A stretch of DNA of 64,000 nucleotides from Henriciella mobilis (GTDB taxonomy: Bacteria; Pseudomonadota; Alphaproteobacteria; Caulobacterales; Hyphomonadaceae). The notes under the pieces were generated by a model. The model was not told where the DNA came from. It saw only the letters and a program-made list of their open reading frames with translations, and made no database searches. Below, piece by piece: positions 24,468 to 42,921 of this stretch (positions within the stretch are counted from its first letter, which is position 1; each line of letters begins with the position of its first letter). The DNA is taken from contig NZ_QWFZ01000006.1 of NCBI RefSeq assembly GCF_003576315.1, positions 62,001 through 126,000 on the forward strand, given 5' to 3'. The translations under genes and the position numbers were made by a program.

Positions 24468-27400
24468 TTGGAACACCGTGAAGTCACGCTGAACGATAAA
24501 TACGATCTTGTCGAGGGCCACGCTTACATGACTGGCATCCAGGCGCTGGTGCGCCTGCCGCTTGACCAGAGGCGCCTCGACCGTGCCGCCGGATACAACA
24601 CGGCCGGTTTCATTTCGGGCTATCGCGGCTCGCCGCTCGGCGGCTACGACCAGCAACTCCGCGCCGCGCAGAAATGGCTGGACGCCCATGACATCGAGTT
24701 CTGGGAAGGCCTGAACGAGGACCTTGGCGCCACCGCCGTCTGGGGCAGCCAGCAGCTAGGCCTGTTCCCCGGCGCCCGTCGCGATGGCCTGTTCGGCATC
24801 TGGTACGGCAAGGCGCCCGGCGTCGACCGCTCCGGTGACGCCTTCAAGCATGCCAACGCCGCCGGCTCGTCGCGTCTTGGCGGTGTCCTCGCCATCTGCG
24901 GCGACGACCATATGTGCAAATCCTCGACGCTGCCGTCGCAGTCGGAATATGCGATGCGCGATGCCGAGATCCCGGTGCTCAACCCGGCCTCGATCCAGGA
25001 CGTGCTCGACTATGGTATTCATGGCTGGGCGATGAGCCGTTTCTCCGGTGCCTGGTCCGCCCTGATCGCGCTGGCAGACACCATGGACTCCGGCGCCGTG
25101 GTCGATGTGACGCTGGACCGGCTGAAACTGATCAAGCCCGACTTCGAGTTTCCGGAAGACGGCGTGCATATGCGCCGCGGCGACAACCCGCTCGACAAGG
25201 AGCGCCGGCTTCGCCAGTTCAAGCTTCCCGCCGCGCAGGCCTGGGTCAAGGCCAACGGGCTCGACCATGTCCTCATCCCGTCCCCGAAGCCGCGCGTCGG
25301 CATCGTCACGACCGGCCAGGCGGCCCGCGACATCTTCGAAGCGCTTGCCGCGATCGGCCTGACGCCGGAACAGGCCGGTGCGCTCGGCATCAGCGTGTTC
25401 AAGGTCGCCATGCCGTGGCCGCTTGAACAGTCGGCGATCCGCGAGTTCTGCCGCGGCCTCGAGCGCGTTCTCGTCATCGAGCACAAACGCCCCCTCATTG
25501 AGGAGCAGCTGCGCGCCGCGCTCTACAGCCTGCCGGACAACCAGCGCCCCTATATCGAGGGCAAGCGCGACAAGCAGGGCAAGCCGCTTCTGAGCGAGGT
25601 CGGCTCCATCCCCGTGCCTGAAATTGCAGACGCCGTCATGCACCGCGTCCCGGGCGAGTGGGACCACAGTGCGGCAGACCAGTATTTCACCCGCGTCGGC
25701 GCAGCCGGCCGGGCAGCGCTGTCAAACGCGTCGCCAACCGTGCGTTCGCCGCACTATTGCTCGGGCTGCCCGCACAATACCTCGACCGTCGTGCCGGAAG
25801 GCTCGCGCGCGCTTGCGGGCATCGGCTGCCACTACATGGCGAACTTCATGCCGGACCGGAACACCGACATGACCAGCCAGATGGGCGGCGAGGGTATCGC
25901 CTGGCTCGGCCAGTATTTCGCAACTGATGAAGACCACATGTTCGTCAATCTCGGCGACGGGACCTATTCGCACTCCGGCTCGCTCGCGATCCGCGCGGCG
26001 GTCTCCTCGAAGGCGAACATGACCTACAAGATCCTCTACAATGATGCGGTCGCCATGACCGGCGGCCAGCATGTCGAATCCGGCCAGACTCCAGTGAATA
26101 TCGCCCAGCAGGTCGAGGCCGAGGGCGTCACCAAGATCGTCATCGTGACCGAGGATCCGACCCGCTATGCCGGCGTGAAGGGGCTGCCGCGCTCCGTGCG
26201 CATCTATGACCGCGAGAAGCTGGACGAGGTCCAGCGCATGCTGCGCGACACGCCCGGTGTCTCGGTCCTGATCTATGACCAGATCTGCGCGACAGAGAAG
26301 CGCCGCCGCTCCAAGCGCGGCCTGCGCAAGCCGGACCGTGTGCGCGTGATGATCAATCAGGAGGTCTGCGAGGGCTGCGGCGACTGCTCGGTGAAATCGA
26401 ACTGCCTCTCCGTCGAGCCGGTCGAGACCGATCTTGGCCGCAAGCGCCGGATCAACCAGTCGACCTGCAATACCGACCTCTCATGCCTGCGCGGTTTCTG
26501 CCCGAGCTTCGTGACCATCAAGGATGGCCACTTCGCCGCCGAGGACGAGCCAGGTCTTGATGTCGACGCATCCGGCCTGCCGCTGCCGGACCTGCCATCG
26601 GTTGCCAAGCCGTGGAACGTGCTGTTCACCGGCGTTGGCGGAACAGGTGTGACGACCGTGGCCGCGGTGCTCGCCATGGCCGCGCATGTCGATGGCAACG
26701 CTTCCTCCAGCCTCGACATGACCGGCCTTGCCCAGAAGGGCGGCCCGGTGCTCTCGCACCTGCGGTTTGCCAAGCATCCCGAGCTGATCTCGACCGGCCG
26801 CGTGCCGCCGGCTTCGGCCGATGCGGTCATCGCCTGCGACCTCGTCGTGGCCGCAAGCGGCGACGCCCTTGGCCTTATGGATGTCGGGCGCACGGTGGCC
26901 TCGGCCAATGCCGACGTCACGCCGACGAGCGAGTTCATCCGTGACCGTTCGAAGAAGTTCGAGAGCCAGCTGCTGGCTGCGCGCGTGAAGCGCCAGGCCC
27001 GCGACTTCGGCACGATCGATGCTGAGGCGCTGGCGCTGCTCTATCTCAATGACGCGATCTACACGAACATGATCATGGTCGGCTACGCCTGGCAGAAGGG
27101 GCACCTGCCGGTGTCGCTGCGCGGGCTTTACCGGGCGATCAAGCTGAATGGCGTGAAGGTCGAGGAAAACATGAAGGCCTTCGATGTCGGGCGCCTGGCC
27201 GCTGCCGATCCGGAGCGGCTCGCCGAGACGCCGGATCCGCGCGGTGAGGTCAAGCCGATGACGCTGGACGAGCTGATCGAGGACCGGGCAAGCCGCCTGG
27301 TCGCTTATCAGAACGACGCCTATGCCCAGCAGTATCGCGATCTCGTCGCCGAGGTCCGCGCGAAGGAAGAGAAAGCCGGGCTCGGTGAGGGCTTCACCAC

Positions 27401-27926
27401 GGCGGTGGCGAAGTTCGCCTTCAAGCTGATGGCCTACAAGGACGAGTATGAAGTCGCCCGCCTGTTCACCGACGGGTCCTTCGACAAGAAACTTCGGGAG
27501 ACCTTCAAGGGCGGGAAGATCCAGTTCCACATGGCGCCGCCGCTGCTGTCCAAGAAGGATGCCAACGGTCATCTTCTCAAGAAGAAGTTCGGCCCTTGGA
27601 TGAAGACGGCCTTCAGCCTCATGAAGCGCTTCAAGGGGCTGCGCGGCACGCGGTTCGATCCGTTTGGCTACACCGCCGAGCGCCGGATGGAGCGCCAGCT
27701 GCGCGACGACTATCTGGAGAACATGATCAAGCTGGCCGATGGCCTGACGAAGAAGAACCATGAGCTTGCCATTGCCATCGCCTCGATCCCGGATGACATC
27801 CGTGGCTACGGCCATGTGAAGGAGGCCGCCGTCGAAGCCGCCGAAGCGCGCTCGAAAGAGCTGTGGCAGAACTGGCCTGAGGGCGGCCTGCCGAAAGAGA
27901 AGAAAACGCTGATCGCGGCGGAGTAG
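24468..27926 (+). CDS. Fused indolepyruvate:ferredoxin oxidoreductase (IorA-IorB type)
   Basis: The 1152-residue protein joins the two subunits of archaeal IOR. The N-terminal part is a pyrimidine-type ThDP domain (about 25-390) and a ThDP-binding domain around LGDGTYSHSGSLAIRAAVSS. A ferredoxin-like region has CEGCGDCSVKSNC from C634 and STCNTDLSCLRGFCP. The gamma-type domain starts LFTGVGGTGVTTVAAVLAMA. It decarboxylates aryl-2-oxo acids from aromatic amino acids to acyl-CoA, reducing ferredoxin. It starts at TTG after TTAGGGAG and diverges from the Lrp gene. Confidence 0.9.
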   Translation: MEHREVTLNDKYDLVEGHAYMTGIQALVRLPLDQRRLDRAAGYNTAGFISGYRGSPLGGYDQQLRAAQKWLDAHDIEFWEGLNEDLGATAVWGSQQLGLFPGARRDGLFGIWYGKAPGVDRSGDAFKHANAAGSSRLGGVLAICGDDHMCKSSTLPSQSEYAMRDAEIPVLNPASIQDVLDYGIHGWAMSRFSGAWSALIALADTMDSGAVVDVTLDRLKLIKPDFEFPEDGVHMRRGDNPLDKERRLRQFKLPAAQAWVKANGLDHVLIPSPKPRVGIVTTGQAARDIFEALAAIGLTPEQAGALGISVFKVAMPWPLEQSAIREFCRGLERVLVIEHKRPLIEEQLRAALYSLPDNQRPYIEGKRDKQGKPLLSEVGSIPVPEIADAVMHRVPGEWDHSAADQYFTRVGAAGRAALSNASPTVRSPHYCSGCPHNTSTVVPEGSRALAGIGCHYMANFMPDRNTDMTSQMGGEGIAWLGQYFATDEDHMFVNLGDGTYSHSGSLAIRAAVSSKANMTYKILYNDAVAMTGGQHVESGQTPVNIAQQVEAEGVTKIVIVTEDPTRYAGVKGLPRSVRIYDREKLDEVQRMLRDTPGVSVLIYDQICATEKRRRSKRGLRKPDRVRVMINQEVCEGCGDCSVKSNCLSVEPVETDLGRKRRINQSTCNTDLSCLRGFCPSFVTIKDGHFAAEDEPGLDVDASGLPLPDLPSVAKPWNVLFTGVGGTGVTTVAAVLAMAAHVDGNASSSLDMTGLAQKGGPVLSHLRFAKHPELISTGRVPPASADAVIACDLVVAASGDALGLMDVGRTVASANADVTPTSEFIRDRSKKFESQLLAARVKRQARDFGTIDAEALALLYLNDAIYTNMIMVGYAWQKGHLPVSLRGLYRAIKLNGVKVEENMKAFDVGRLAAADPERLAETPDPRGEVKPMTLDELIEDRASRLVAYQNDAYAQQYRDLVAEVRAKEEKAGLGEGFTTAVAKFAFKLMAYKDEYEVARLFTDGSFDKKLRETFKGGKIQFHMAPPLLSKKDANGHLLKKKFGPWMKTAFSLMKRFKGLRGTRFDPFGYTAERRMERQLRDDYLENMIKLADGLTKKNHELAIAIASIPDDIRGYGHVKEAAVEAAEARSKELWQNWPEGGLPKEKKTLIAAE

Positions 27927-27940
27927 GCGAAAAACAACAC

Positions 27941-27974
27941 CGCCTCATGGTGAGCGAAGTCGAACCACGAGGCG
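27941..27974 (+). repeat. Palindromic repeat of the GIY-YIG element family, solo copy A
   Basis: Arms CGCCTCATGGT and ACCACGAGGCG (one mismatch) enclose the loop GAGCGAAGTCGA. The inner 30 bp are identical to the right terminal repeat of the GIY-YIG element at 42757-42793. The outermost two pairs differ by compensating changes (CG/CG here, GC/GC there). Confidence 0.85.
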
Positions 27975-27988
27975 GGCCGCATTGCAGA

Positions 27989-28026
27989 ACACCCTTGTCC
28001 TTCGACTTCGCTCAGGATGAGGGTGT
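27989..28026 (-). repeat. Palindromic repeat, solo copy A-prime, inverted relative to copy A
   Basis: Arms ACACCCTTGTCC and GGATGAGGGTGT (two mismatches) enclose TTCGACTTCGCTCA, the reverse complement of the copy A core. Together the two copies form an inverted pair between the ior and lysS stops. Confidence 0.8.
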
Positions 28027-28032
28027 ATTTTC

Positions 28033-29622
28033 TTAGGCTCTTGCCAGCGCGTTCTTGATCAGCCTTGCTGTCTCATGCACGCCATAAAGCGCGGCGAAGC
28101 CGCCGAAGCGCGGGCCCTGGCTCTGGCCGAGCAGGACTTCGTAGAGCGCCTTGAACCAGTCGCGCAGATTCTCGAACTCGTGCGTCTTGCCGATCTCGAA
28201 GGTGAGGTTCTGCAGGGTTTCTGCGTCGGCATCCCCCTCGATCAGGCTGAGGCGTTCGGCGAGGTCTTCCATGGCTGCGCGCTCCTTCTCGTCGGGGGCG
28301 CGATAGACCTTGGTCGGCTGGACGAAGTCCTCATAATAACGGATCGCATAGCCGGCGAGCTGGTCGAGCAGCGGATGGCTGTCCGGGCTCGCCTCGGGCG
28401 CATAGCGGGAGATGAAGTCCCAGAGCTGGTCCTTGGTCTCGGTGTTTGCGGCGCTGACCAGGTTGAGCAGCAGTGCGAACGACACAGGCGTATCGCCCTC
28501 CGGCGGGTTGCCGGAATGGATGTGCCAGACAGGGTTCTCGATCTGGCGGGCCGGCTCCTCCTCGGGATACTTCGACAGGAAGGTGAGATACTCGTCGACC
28601 GCCTTCGGGATCACGTCGAAATACAGCTTCTTGGCCGCGCGCGGCTTCTGGAACTGGAACAGCGACAGGCTCTCCTGCGGCGCATAGGCGAGCCAGTCCT
28701 CGACCGAGATGCCATTGCCCTTGGTCTTGGAGATCTTCTCGCCCTTGTCGTCGAGGAACAGCTCGTACACATATTGCTGCGGCGGCTGGGCGCCGAGGAT
28801 CTTGCAGATCTTGGAATAGATCGGCGCATTGTCCTGGTGGTCCTTGCCGAACATCTCGAAGTCGACGCCGAGCGCGGCCCAGCGCATGCCGAAATCCGGC
28901 TTCCATTGCAGCTTGGTGTTGCCGCCCGTGACCGGGATGGTGACGTCACTGCCGTCCTCATCCTCGAAGGTGATTGTCCCGGCCTTTGCATCAGTCGCCT
29001 TCATCGGCACGTAGAGGACGCGGCCGGTCGAGGGCGAGATGGGCAGGAAGGGGGAATAGGTCGCCTGCCGCTCGGCGCCGAGGGTCGGCAGCATCACGGC
29101 CATGATCTCATCGAACTTTTCCAGCGCGCGCAGCAGCGCCTCATCGAACGCGCCCGACGTGTAGAGCTCCGTCGCCGACTTGAACTCATAATCAAAGCCG
29201 AAACTGTCGAGGAAGGCGCAGAGCCGCGCGCCCATATGCGCGCCATAGCTTTCATGCGTGCCGAACGGGTCCGGCACGGATGTCAGCGGCTGTTGCATAT
29301 AGGCTTCGAGATCAGCCGGGTTCGGCACGGTCGGTGGGACCTTGCGCATACCGTCCATGTCGTCGGAAACGCAGATCAGCTTGGTTTCGTACTTCCCGTC
29401 GGTCAGCGTCTCGAAGGCGTGGCGCACCATGGTCGTGCGGACCACTTCGCCGAAGGTGCCGATATGCGGCAGGCCGGACGGGCCGTAGCCGGTCTCGAAG
29501 ACGACCGGGCCCTGTTTCGGATTGCCGGCGCGCTCCATGTTTTCCAGCCGTTTGAGCAGGGCACGGGCCTGTTCGAAGGGCCATGCCTTGGCAGTCTCGG
29601 CTAGCGTGGATAGCGCGCTCAT
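28033..29622 (-). CDS. lysK: Class I (archaeal-type) lysyl-tRNA synthetase
   Basis: The 529-residue enzyme is a class I Rossmann synthetase, unrelated to E. coli LysS. The HIGH motif appears as HIGT (53-56, in [15 protein letters not shown]), and the KMSKS loop as [16 protein letters not shown]. It charges tRNA-Lys. Class I LysRS is well known in many alphaproteobacteria, so this is probably the cell's only LysRS, though the window cannot show that. A 509-codon rightward frame across it is a shadow. Two palindromic repeats follow its stop. Confidence 0.93.
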
Positions 29623-41102: not shown

Positions 41103-41293
41103 GCGGAATGCGGCCTCGTCCGGCGCTTGCGTGCCGTCTGGACAGCGCGCCCGCTCAGCCGGCACGGGCATTCTCGCCGATTCATTCAATTCTGGCTTGA
41201 ATCCTGCGTAAGCGTTCCTCGACCGAATTTTGAGGGTGGCTGGTCTCCGGGGGGAGTCGGGCGCCGCCGGCCATGAGGGGGCAGGGGACAATC

Positions 41294-42349
41294 ATGCCAA
41301 TTCCGCTCGACCTGGGCGACGCCTGGGCGCTTGTGCTTCGTTACAAGATGTTTTTCATCACGCTGTCTGTGTTCTTCGGCGCGGCGGTAATTTCACTCAT
41401 CTGGCAGTGGCGGCGCATGGGCAAGTCGCTCAGCCTGCGGGAATTTCTCAAGACTTGTTTCCAGCCGGGCTTTGCCGGTGCGTCGAGCCGGACGGATCTT
41501 GCCATGTATGTCATCGTGAAGCTCACCCATGGCTTCCTCGTGGCCGGAATGATCATCGTGCAGCTCTGGCTCGGCCTGGTGATTGCAGACGGCCTGACAG
41601 CACTGTTTGGCGCGGTCGAGCCAGCCGAGGCGGGTTTCGTCACTATCGTCGTCATGTCGGTCGTGATCTTCCTGTTCGCCGACTTCTCGAACTTCCTGAC
41701 CCACTACATGCAGCACAAGATCCCCGTCCTGTGGGAGCTGCACAAGGTACACCATTCGGCGACCTATCTCTCGCCGCTGACCACCGCGCGCATGCACCCG
41801 CTGGGTGACCTGTTCGACCTGGTCACCGCCGGGGCCTTTACCGCCATTCCGATGGGCGTGGGCGTCTATCTTTTCGGCTTTGACCTGCCAGAACTCTTCC
41901 TGATGCTGGCCAATGCGAACTTCATCGGCACGGTGCTGGTGCTCGACGCGCTGCGCCACAGCCAGTTCCCGGTCAGCTTCGGGGCGGCCGACCGCGTGCT
42001 GATGAGCCCGCACATGCACCAGCTCCACCACAGCATCGACGAGGCCCACTGGGACAAGAATATGGGCAACAAGCTGTCCATCTTCGACTGGATTTTCGGC
42101 ACGGCCTACAAGCCCGCGCAGGGCGAGATTGTCGGCTATGGCATCGGCCGCGGCGACGCCGAGGACGACCTGTTTCACAGCCTGTACGGGGCGTATGTCC
42201 GCCCGGTCTTCGGCATGGCCCGCACCCTGATCGGCCGCCGCCCGGACCTGCCGCCACCCGTGCGGCCAATTTCGCAGGGGGGTCTTTCGGGCGACGCGAA
42301 GGCCGCCGGGCCCGCGGCGGAAGCCGGCCGGGAACTGCAGACCGGATAG
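41294..42349 (+). CDS. Sterol desaturase/fatty-acid hydroxylase-superfamily membrane protein
   Basis: The ATG at 41294 follows AGGGGAC, giving 351 residues with about six membrane segments. The three di-iron histidine boxes are HYMQH, HKVHH and HMHQLHH, and SIDEAHWDKNMGNKLSIFDW is the typical last block. It should hydroxylate or desaturate a lipid (sterol, hopanoid, carotenoid or fatty acid). The GIY-YIG element lies 13 bp beyond its stop. Confidence 0.9.
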   Translation: MPIPLDLGDAWALVLRYKMFFITLSVFFGAAVISLIWQWRRMGKSLSLREFLKTCFQPGFAGASSRTDLAMYVIVKLTHGFLVAGMIIVQLWLGLVIADGLTALFGAVEPAEAGFVTIVVMSVVIFLFADFSNFLTHYMQHKIPVLWELHKVHHSATYLSPLTTARMHPLGDLFDLVTAGAFTAIPMGVGVYLFGFDLPELFLMLANANFIGTVLVLDALRHSQFPVSFGAADRVLMSPHMHQLHHSIDEAHWDKNMGNKLSIFDWIFGTAYKPAQGEIVGYGIGRGDAEDDLFHSLYGAYVRPVFGMARTLIGRRPDLPPPVRPISQGGLSGDAKAAGPAAEAGRELQTG

Positions 42350-42362
42350 GCATGGCCTCGCG

Positions 42363-42399
42363 CGCCCTCGTGGTTCGACTTCGCTCACCATGAGGGCTA
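42363..42399 (-). repeat. Left terminal palindromic repeat of the GIY-YIG element
   Basis: It contains the core TTCGACTTCGCTCA in the opposite orientation to copy A. It ends ten bases before the nuclease ATG, so the hairpin could mask the weak ribosome site. Confidence 0.9.
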
Positions 42400-42408
42400 A
42401 GAGACGGC

Positions 42409-42759
42409 ATGCTCGGGGATGCGTTCGTCTACATTCTGAAATGCGCTGACGGGAAATATTATGTCGGCCGCTATCGGGGCAGGGACCTCGCGACGCGGAT
42501 TGGCGAGCATCAGTCGGGCCTGCGAAAGGATGCATGGACCTATCGGCGGCGCCCCGTTGAACTGGTCTGGTCGACGCAGTTCTACAGGATGGACGAAGCG
42601 GCCGCCTTCGAACAGCAGATCAAGAAATGGTCCCGCGCCAAGAAGGAGGCCCTGATCCGAGGTGATGTCGCGGCGCTGAAGCAGCTGTCGCTTTCGAAAT
42701 CCGCTCCCGCCGATCCATCCAAAGCCTGGTTCCCGAGAGGAAAATCGCACAGCGACTAG
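42409..42759 (+). CDS. Single-domain GIY-YIG endonuclease
   Basis: The 116-residue protein is one GIY-YIG catalytic domain. V7-Y-I and Y18-V-G20 stand for GIY and YIG, R30 and H34 follow in LATRIGEHQSG, and the metal-binding Glu is E68 in AAFEQQIKKWSRAKKEALI. It has no UvrC or homing-endonuclease DNA-binding extension beyond a short basic tail. The family nicks or cuts DNA. It is flanked on both sides by identical palindromes that form part of its 5' leader and its stop codon, which suggests they are its substrate or its means of spread. That role is inferred. Confidence 0.85.
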   Translation: MLGDAFVYILKCADGKYYVGRYRGRDLATRIGEHQSGLRKDAWTYRRRPVELVWSTQFYRMDEAAAFEQQIKKWSRAKKEALIRGDVAALKQLSLSKSAPADPSKAWFPRGKSHSD

Positions 42760-42793
42760 CCCTCATGGTGAGCGAAGTCGAACCACGAGGGCG
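42757..42793 (+). repeat. Right terminal palindromic repeat of the GIY-YIG element
   Basis: It carries the core TGAGCGAAGTCGAA and begins with the TAG stop codon of the nuclease gene. It matches solo copy A at 27941 over the inner 30 bp. Confidence 0.9.
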
Positions 42794-42815
42794 GGTTGAG
42801 TATCGCCGGCAGATG

Positions 42816-42849
42816 GCCCTCGCCCTTCGCCTTCGCTCAGGGTGAGGGC
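42816..42849 (-). repeat. Palindromic repeat, diverged copy D
   Basis: Arms GCCCTCGCCCT and AGGGTGAGGGC (one mismatch) enclose TCGCCTTCGCTC. Compared with the element ends, the stem has changed on both sides so that pairing is kept. Confidence 0.8.
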
Positions 42850-42883
42850 TATGGGGGGCGAGGCTGCAACCGATCCACACGAT

Positions 42884-42921
42884 GCCCCTTCTTCCTGAGC
42901 GAAGTCGAAGGATGAGAGGGC
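42884..42921 (+). repeat. Palindromic repeat, diverged copy E
   Basis: The core TGAGCGAAGTCGAA is intact, with imperfect arms GCCCCTTCTTCC and GGATGAGAGGGC. It is inverted relative to copy D, repeating the pairwise arrangement seen at 27941-28026. Confidence 0.7.

Follow-up and report, generated by a model that had tools for sequence, protein, structure and literature searches.

A GIY-YIG nuclease gene bounded by inward-facing palindromes in Henriciella mobilis: a probable REP-like mobile element

The window analyzed here, a stretch of 64,000 nucleotides of Henriciella mobilis (contig NZ_QWFZ01000006.1, positions 62,001 to 126,000; assembly GCF_003576315.1), contains a small GIY-YIG nuclease gene between two palindromes (Table 1). 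In a preliminary description made from the sequence alone, the two ends were given as reverse complements of each other, and they do match at 37 of 37 positions. Identity does not extend past the edges of the arms, where the adjoining bases mismatch on both the outer and the inner side. The identical ends may reflect recent spread or gene conversion, the two origins suggested in that description. The ends had also been called perfect palindromes, which is correct in so far as one arm is an exact inverted repeat of the other and each folds as a hairpin, but each arm by itself is an imperfect palindrome. The hairpins have a loop of 12 nt; their stems are imperfect, with a G-T pair in the left arm and a one-base mismatch in the right arm, and the calculated DNA folding energies are -9.8 kcal/mol (z -2.9) for the left and -8.6 kcal/mol (z -2.1) for the right arm. 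The right end supplies the stop codon, as described, TAG at 42757-42759 being the first triplet of the arm. The spacing between the left arm and the ATG is nine bases and not ten, as had been stated.

The description of the gene as a bare 116-residue GIY-YIG nuclease was confirmed by an intact reading frame and by a Pfam GIY-YIG match (E 8.3e-15; 55.3 bits, against a cut-off of 22.6), which is the sole Pfam match of the protein. In an alignment of 43 nuclease sequences, Y8, R30, H34 and E68 are invariant and Y18 is present in at least 90%. We take Y8, Y18, R30 and E68 to be the catalytic Tyr, Tyr, Arg and Glu of the domain, and the window protein thus has both the domain and the presumed catalytic residues of the GIY-YIG superfamily. 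A dN/dS ratio was obtained for five of seven nuclease pairs and was 0.05-0.18; silent sites are near saturation in each of these pairs except L022/L023 (dN/dS 0.10). Judged from these comparisons, the gene is under purifying selection with its presumed catalytic positions conserved. With one GIY-YIG domain in about 100 amino acids, the protein resembles UPF0213 and the small stand-alone GIY-YIG proteins 1zg2 and 1ywl, which are the best solved relatives of the nuclease profile (E 4.7e-20 and 1.1e-14, respectively). In the accessible literature, no publication was found that treats UPF0213 or YhbQ together with GIY-YIG. NCBIfam, PHROGs and PADLOC gave no matches, and two Rfam matches, both to microRNA families and far under the gathering scores, were taken as chance. 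The C-termini of three protein matches (P0064, P0072 and P0089) read PSTSSG or PSTGSG, the translation of CCTTCGACAAGCTCAGG or CCTTCGACAGGCTCAGG; here the right palindrome would encode the end of the protein.

Table 1. Palindromes and nuclease gene at and around the element in the window.
Feature	Position	Strand	Remarks
Left terminal palindrome, REP-like	42363..42399	+	Core TTCGACTTCGCTCA pointing at the gene
Single-domain GIY-YIG nuclease gene, 116 aa	42409..42759	+	ORF and Pfam; stop codon within the right palindrome
Right terminal palindrome	42757..42793	-	Exact inverted copy of the left one
Further family palindrome	42816..42851	+	One core mismatch
Further family palindrome, TCC..GGA stem type	42887..42921	-	Genome core search
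Gene-less palindrome pair	27941..28026	cores 27951-27964 (-), 28001-28014 (+)	Outward-facing

The core of the arms is found elsewhere in the window and in the genome; the whole 3.97-Mb genome has 16 copies of it and none of the reversed control. With up to two mismatches allowed, the window has 8 copies, compared with a mean of 0.64 in shuffled sequence. Most genomic copies have a TGG..CCA stem and two have a TCC..GGA stem, with an identical core. The two further palindromes to the right of the element form an inward-facing pair without a gene. The outward-facing pair, which combines one stem of each type, lies between two genes that converge on it, 24468-27926 (+) and 28033-29622 (-).

Within the genus, 29 genomes were searched for related proteins, and 45 matches were obtained: 14 of clade A (E below 1e-24), 30 of clade B (33-42% identity) and a 41-residue fragment (L033) at the L024 locus, which lies between two palindromes. 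Inward-facing copies of TTCGAC-N2-3-GCTCA were present within 200 nt on both flanks at 13 of the 14 clade A loci; at the sole exception, L031, the family palindrome stands on the left flank only. Four clade A loci (L025, L027, L042 and L043) have a core with AG or AA instead of TTC. None of the 17 clade B loci examined, of 30 in the genus, had palindromes of this family. Several clade B loci have other inverted palindromes, and neither TTCGA nor CGTC palindromes were found at the flanks of the window genome's own clade B genes, L001 and L002.

Wider samples supported the proposal that palindromes of this family also border other GIY-YIG genes. A profile search of contigs gave at least 479 stretches encoding a relative, of which the best 80 make up the named sample. 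The motif CCTTCGA-N2-60-CTCAGG was found on both sides at 38 of these best 80 loci and in none of 893 pairs of background windows, hence far more commonly than in the controls; on at least one side the counts were 59 of 80 and 28 of 893. Likewise, CTCAGGATG was present in the flanks of 50 of the best 80 loci, compared with 1.6 expected. When inverted repeats spanning the gene were scored without gaps, the best one reached at least 15 at 50 of the 80, compared with 6 of 1392 mechanical ORFs, a control that lies mostly inside genes, in which several GIY frames ran into neighbours, and to which the controls by background windows and called genes are superior. The TTCGA..CTCA family around GIY-YIG genes was counted in Alphaproteobacteria and observed by eye in Bacteroidota, Chloroflexi, Ignavibacteria, Nitrospinota and Actinomycetota; the palindromes seen to flank genes in Ignavibacteria, Nitrospinota, Chloroflexi, Bacteroidota and Janibacter were of the TTCGA or CTCGA type. 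Five flavobacterial loci (L104, L141, L143, L150 and L153) lie among palindromes of yet another family (TCGAACTGAC .. TATCGAGAAC), and one genome, G151, has 11 GIY-YIG matches with several different flanking inverted repeats.

The class sample consisted of 240 genomes of the same class, drawn evenly; the matches listed extend down to 71.3 bits, exclude the window's own and were assigned to clade A at 100 bits or more, a cut that we set ourselves. Among these matches, the TTCGA family stood on both sides at 14 of 23 clade A loci, three with less than 150 nt of flank having been dropped, and at 2 of 70 clade B loci, one of which (L356, 96 bits) is just below the cut. The motif was missing on one or both sides at the other 9 of the 23 clade A loci listed. 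An inverted-repeat score of at least 16 was obtained for 14 of 25 clade A loci (L212 was left out, its flank being missing) and for 35 of 70 clade B loci among the matches listed, compared with 5 of 401 called genes, 240-1200 nt long, at the class and named loci, which are mixed neighbouring genes and not accessory genes as such. Ends were weak (score below 16) at 11 of 25 and 35 of 70 of the listed loci, respectively; clear ends are absent in about half of clade B and about two fifths of clade A.

Many palindromes of clade B belong to another family. CGTC-tagged REPs are defined, in the available part of the survey by Di Nocera, De Gregorio and Rocco (2013; PMC3733652), by a [CT]GTC tag, a stem of 8-9 bp, a loop of 4-5 and a CCA tail, and many of the palindromes flanking clade B genes have all of these features. 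Among the class-sample matches listed, 36 of 70 clade B loci had a strict CGTC REP on one side or more and 24 had them on both; at 46 of the 70 they were missing on one or both sides. Of 514 background windows, 12 had one on at least one side and none on both; the corresponding numbers for control genes were 5 and 0 of 75, and the windows were added because the gene control comprised only these 75 genes. The left and right stems were identical at 14 of 23 both-sided loci, compared with 1.7 on average and at most 7 in 5000 permutations, a test based on 63 clade B loci before seven more joined the count. No strict CGTC REP was found at the 23 clade A class loci among the matches listed, at the 80 named loci (best 80 of at least 479) or near the window gene, whose palindromes are a separate family with a TTCGA..CTCA core.

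For a tree of 207 distinct nucleases, built with FastTree, loci were labelled by the palindrome family present on at least one side, which gave 142 labelled sequences (101 TTCGA, 41 CGTC) and 65 unlabelled ones. The label required two changes on this tree, which has few columns and many open forks, and at least 31 in each of 100 label shuffles. Five loci that were duplicated across samples or shared 45 identical residues were excluded; an earlier tree that included them likewise gave two changes. In the seven fetched genomes with both clades, 8 of 9 clade A loci had TTCGA and none CGTC palindromes, and 10 of 21 clade B loci had CGTC and none TTCGA palindromes, the remaining 11 being unlabelled. 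The palindrome family thus tracks the nuclease clade, even within a single genome, and we are highly confident of both the unit structure and its family specificity.

These comparisons bear on the possibility that the palindromes are ordinary REPs, moved by other means, which pile up around dispensable small genes by chance or insertion preference. Such accumulation would fit with the dispersed, intergenic nature of REPs, with the genomes that are rich in REPs and have no clade A gene, and with the lack of clear ends in about half of the clade B genes. It is disfavoured by the control genes and windows at the same loci, which almost never have palindromes on both sides, and by the paired ends themselves, which match in their stems, face inward in the genus and fit the family of the clade. 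We consider it very unlikely.

Genomes that encode the nuclease were also found to be richer in its palindromes. In the 240 class genomes, the median number of CCTTCGA-N2-30-CTCAGG copies was 26.5 in 24 clade A carriers compared with 1 in 216 others, and reversed controls occurred at about 0.25 per Mb in carriers and others alike. At least ten palindromes were present in 19 of the 24 carriers and in 18 of the 216 other genomes; the exceptions are thus the latter 18 and the 5 carriers with fewer than ten. Within the genus, the TTC core was present in 9-70 copies in 10 carriers and 0-32 copies in 19 others (one-sided P 1.7e-4; P values are rough because genomes within a sample are related), with G026, which has a truncated gene, counted among the carriers and G014 and G017, which have another core, among the others. 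Between 25 and 32 TTC cores were counted in G005, G011 and G021, which have no clade A gene. The AGG core separates carriers less well: its four carriers have 25, 20, 6 and 6 copies and the remaining genomes 0-18 (P 0.007), with 18 in G004 and 17 in G016, neither of which has an AGG-type gene. Altogether, 421 exact cores were found across 20 of the 29 genus genomes, few of them flanking a gene. Among the matches listed from seven genomes, 25 of 30 exact-core neighbours at most 200 nt apart face inward, 4 outward and 1 in tandem, and 16 of the 25 inward pairs are spaced 52-58 nt. Carriers hold many dispersed palindromes as well as inward-facing gene-less pairs.

Dispersed palindromes of this kind could instead be moved by RAYT or IS200-type HUH transposases, with the GIY-YIG gene as a passenger. 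The spread of REPs by TnpA_REP is the known case in the available parts of the literature (PMC3733652; PMC8266576), and the genus genome richest in cores, G007 with 70, has one match to Y1_Tnp (PF01797). At E <= 0.001, however, this family was unmatched in 26 of the 29 genus genomes, including that of the window and five in which 31-38 cores were counted. The E. coli control was positive; RAYT as the mobiliser is thus disfavoured in the genus. Three of four fetched Y1_Tnp loci have no TTCGAC core, and at L349 a single core lies about 500 nt away. A passenger gene, moreover, would not track the palindrome family. As for the CGTC repeats, the portion of the 2013 survey available to us reports no link to transposase genes and zero tyrosine transposases flanked by them, and states that they "apparently lack a dedicated transposase" (PMC3733652). 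Transport by HUH enzymes is in our judgement highly improbable.

Locus alignments show that the gene is found together with its palindromes, as a single unit, at different places in genomes. Same-strand alignments over the gene were obtained for 721 locus pairs, of which 678 have no common flank, but the genus is a fairer sample because most of the 721 pairs join different families, for which no common flank would be expected, and a few loci are duplicates. In the genus, only the unit was in common in 19 of 23 alignable clade A pairs, or in 18 of 23 without L028/L030, which have one neighbour in common in opposite orientation. Four of the unit-only pairs (L026/L028, L026/L030, L026/L041 and L028/L041) have no common neighbour and an alignment that passes both gene ends, extending 48-76 nt beyond the left one and 53-63 nt beyond the right one; L030/L031 and L030/L041 likewise align past both ends. 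The best unit-only pair is 85% identical, and near-identical copies at two sites were not found among these.

Places without the unit were found in relatives for two sister copies. The place of L041 in G016 measures about 500 nt with the element, compared with 53-60 nt between the same flanks in G011, G006 and G003; it measures 98-212 nt in G005, G010 and G026, and about 314 nt in G001, where a lone palindrome makes the stretch look like a remnant of the element. At the place of L022, the element is present in 2 of the 20 genomes looked at, of 26 with a match; in G002, G026 and G023 it is absent, the aligned neighbours are 24-64 nt apart and the right-hand neighbour matches over about 900 nt. 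Base-exact boundaries are not readable because the intergenic sequence has diverged, and no base-exact insertion with a target duplication was found among the compared loci. The sister copies combine a unit at unrelated sites with sites that lack it in relatives, as expected of a transposable element. Relatives without the element, as anticipated, were found for L041 and L022, and no empty site was demonstrated at the window locus itself. There, the neighbouring gene (41273-42349, desaturase/hydroxylase-like by reading) has a best match of 35% identity in the other 28 genus genomes, so that the stretch beside uvrD looks private to the window genome. A uvrD gene was identified in 27 relatives; the gene order at its end differs in them, and neither a desaturase nor a clade A GIY gene is present there. 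The uvrD end of G017 has one weak GIY match (27.5%).

Plasmid records contained four loci, three with TTCGA-type palindromes on both sides and one with none, as assessed by score and by eye. Two loci on Sphingomonas plasmids are placed as in an operon: L354 lies between nrdR and an RNA methyltransferase gene, and L355, a GIY-YIG-like hypothetical gene without palindromes, lies between rnc and era and may be a settled copy.

Positions of this type would suit a cooperating but non-mobile unit, in which the nuclease serves the host, in branched-DNA repair or phage defence, and its transcription is regulated or ended by the hairpins. The stop codon inside the right hairpin fits with such a unit, and so do the GIY-YIG genes of Caulobacter that are tied to phage-related regulation: two nucleases under XRE regulators and a phage homologue, with a suggested role in infection, according to the available part of that study (PMC10688885). 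Terminator hairpins, however, need no dispersal, no matched ends and no inward orientation, and presence and absence at orthologous places together with unit-only homology indicate mobility; PADLOC and PHROGs also returned no match. We regard a non-mobile unit as unlikely.

GIY-YIG homing endonucleases are known, and the existence of places with and without the unit would also fit a homing-like process, in which the nuclease cuts the unoccupied duplex site, recombination with the occupied allele copies the unit, and the palindromes are binding or target sites. Homing would hold the unit at one site, but the copies occupy different places, and the many exact cores in the genus would be left unexplained. 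This process appears quite unlikely to us.

The preferred reading is that the gene and its two inward-facing palindromes are an autonomous REP-like mobile element, which we consider probable. The preliminary description had drawn a parallel to RAYT transposases and REP sequences, with an unrelated nuclease. The parallel stands as an analogy, on account of the homologue flanks, the relatives without the element and the palindrome counts in carriers. As in REP/RAYT systems (REPtrons), according to the available survey text (PMC3733652), short extragenic palindromes are dispersed, often as inverted pairs, and a single gene is flanked by inverted palindromes of an enzyme-specific type; the window element likewise has one gene, with inverted REPs from a dispersed family on its two sides. 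Unlike in RAYT REPtrons, the enzyme is a GIY-YIG nuclease and not an HUH/Y1 tyrosine transposase, and by inspection no GTAG is present on either strand in 42361-42402 and 42755-42795. REPINs are tied to RAYTs, whereas the sole linked enzyme found here is a GIY-YIG protein. The gene-less pairs nevertheless resemble REPINs as presented in the available part of PMC3116915, being inverted palindromes a short distance apart. No report joining GIY-YIG genes to REPs was found in the literature outside bioRxiv preprints and most subscription journals, and no publication on GIY-YIG with CGTC-tagged palindromes; GIY-YIG with repetitive extragenic sequences appeared as an incidental mention only. The main text of PMC12306157, as far as available, does not mention GIY-YIG.

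It is likely that the nuclease acts on its own palindromes, and we are inclined, with somewhat less assurance, to see it as the mobiliser. The enzyme would recognise its palindrome in hairpin form, as it extrudes from duplex DNA or becomes exposed on single-stranded DNA during replication, and would cut at or near the hairpin; host repair would then copy the whole unit, or gene-less palindrome pairs, into new intergenic sites. GIY-YIG enzymes cut hydrolytically, without a covalent protein-DNA link, which would leave the joining to the host, unlike in RAYT/HUH enzymes. The sister clade B would serve the CGTC REPs, for which no enzyme was known according to the available part of the 2013 survey (PMC3733652). 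On balance, we slightly favour the broader view that these units represent a new class of prokaryotic mobile element, with a hairpin-recognising GIY-YIG nuclease as its sole enzyme and as the seeder of both the CGTC REPs and the TTCGA..CTCA palindromes, each of them a widespread family.

If this is true, genes labelled merely as "GIY-YIG nuclease family protein" would gain a role, and REP-like systems would have arisen at least twice with unrelated nucleases. The CGTC REPs, described without an enzyme in the available text of the survey (PMC3733652), would have one. The element would be spread by hydrolytic cutting and host repair, which could be tested with one protein and one oligonucleotide.
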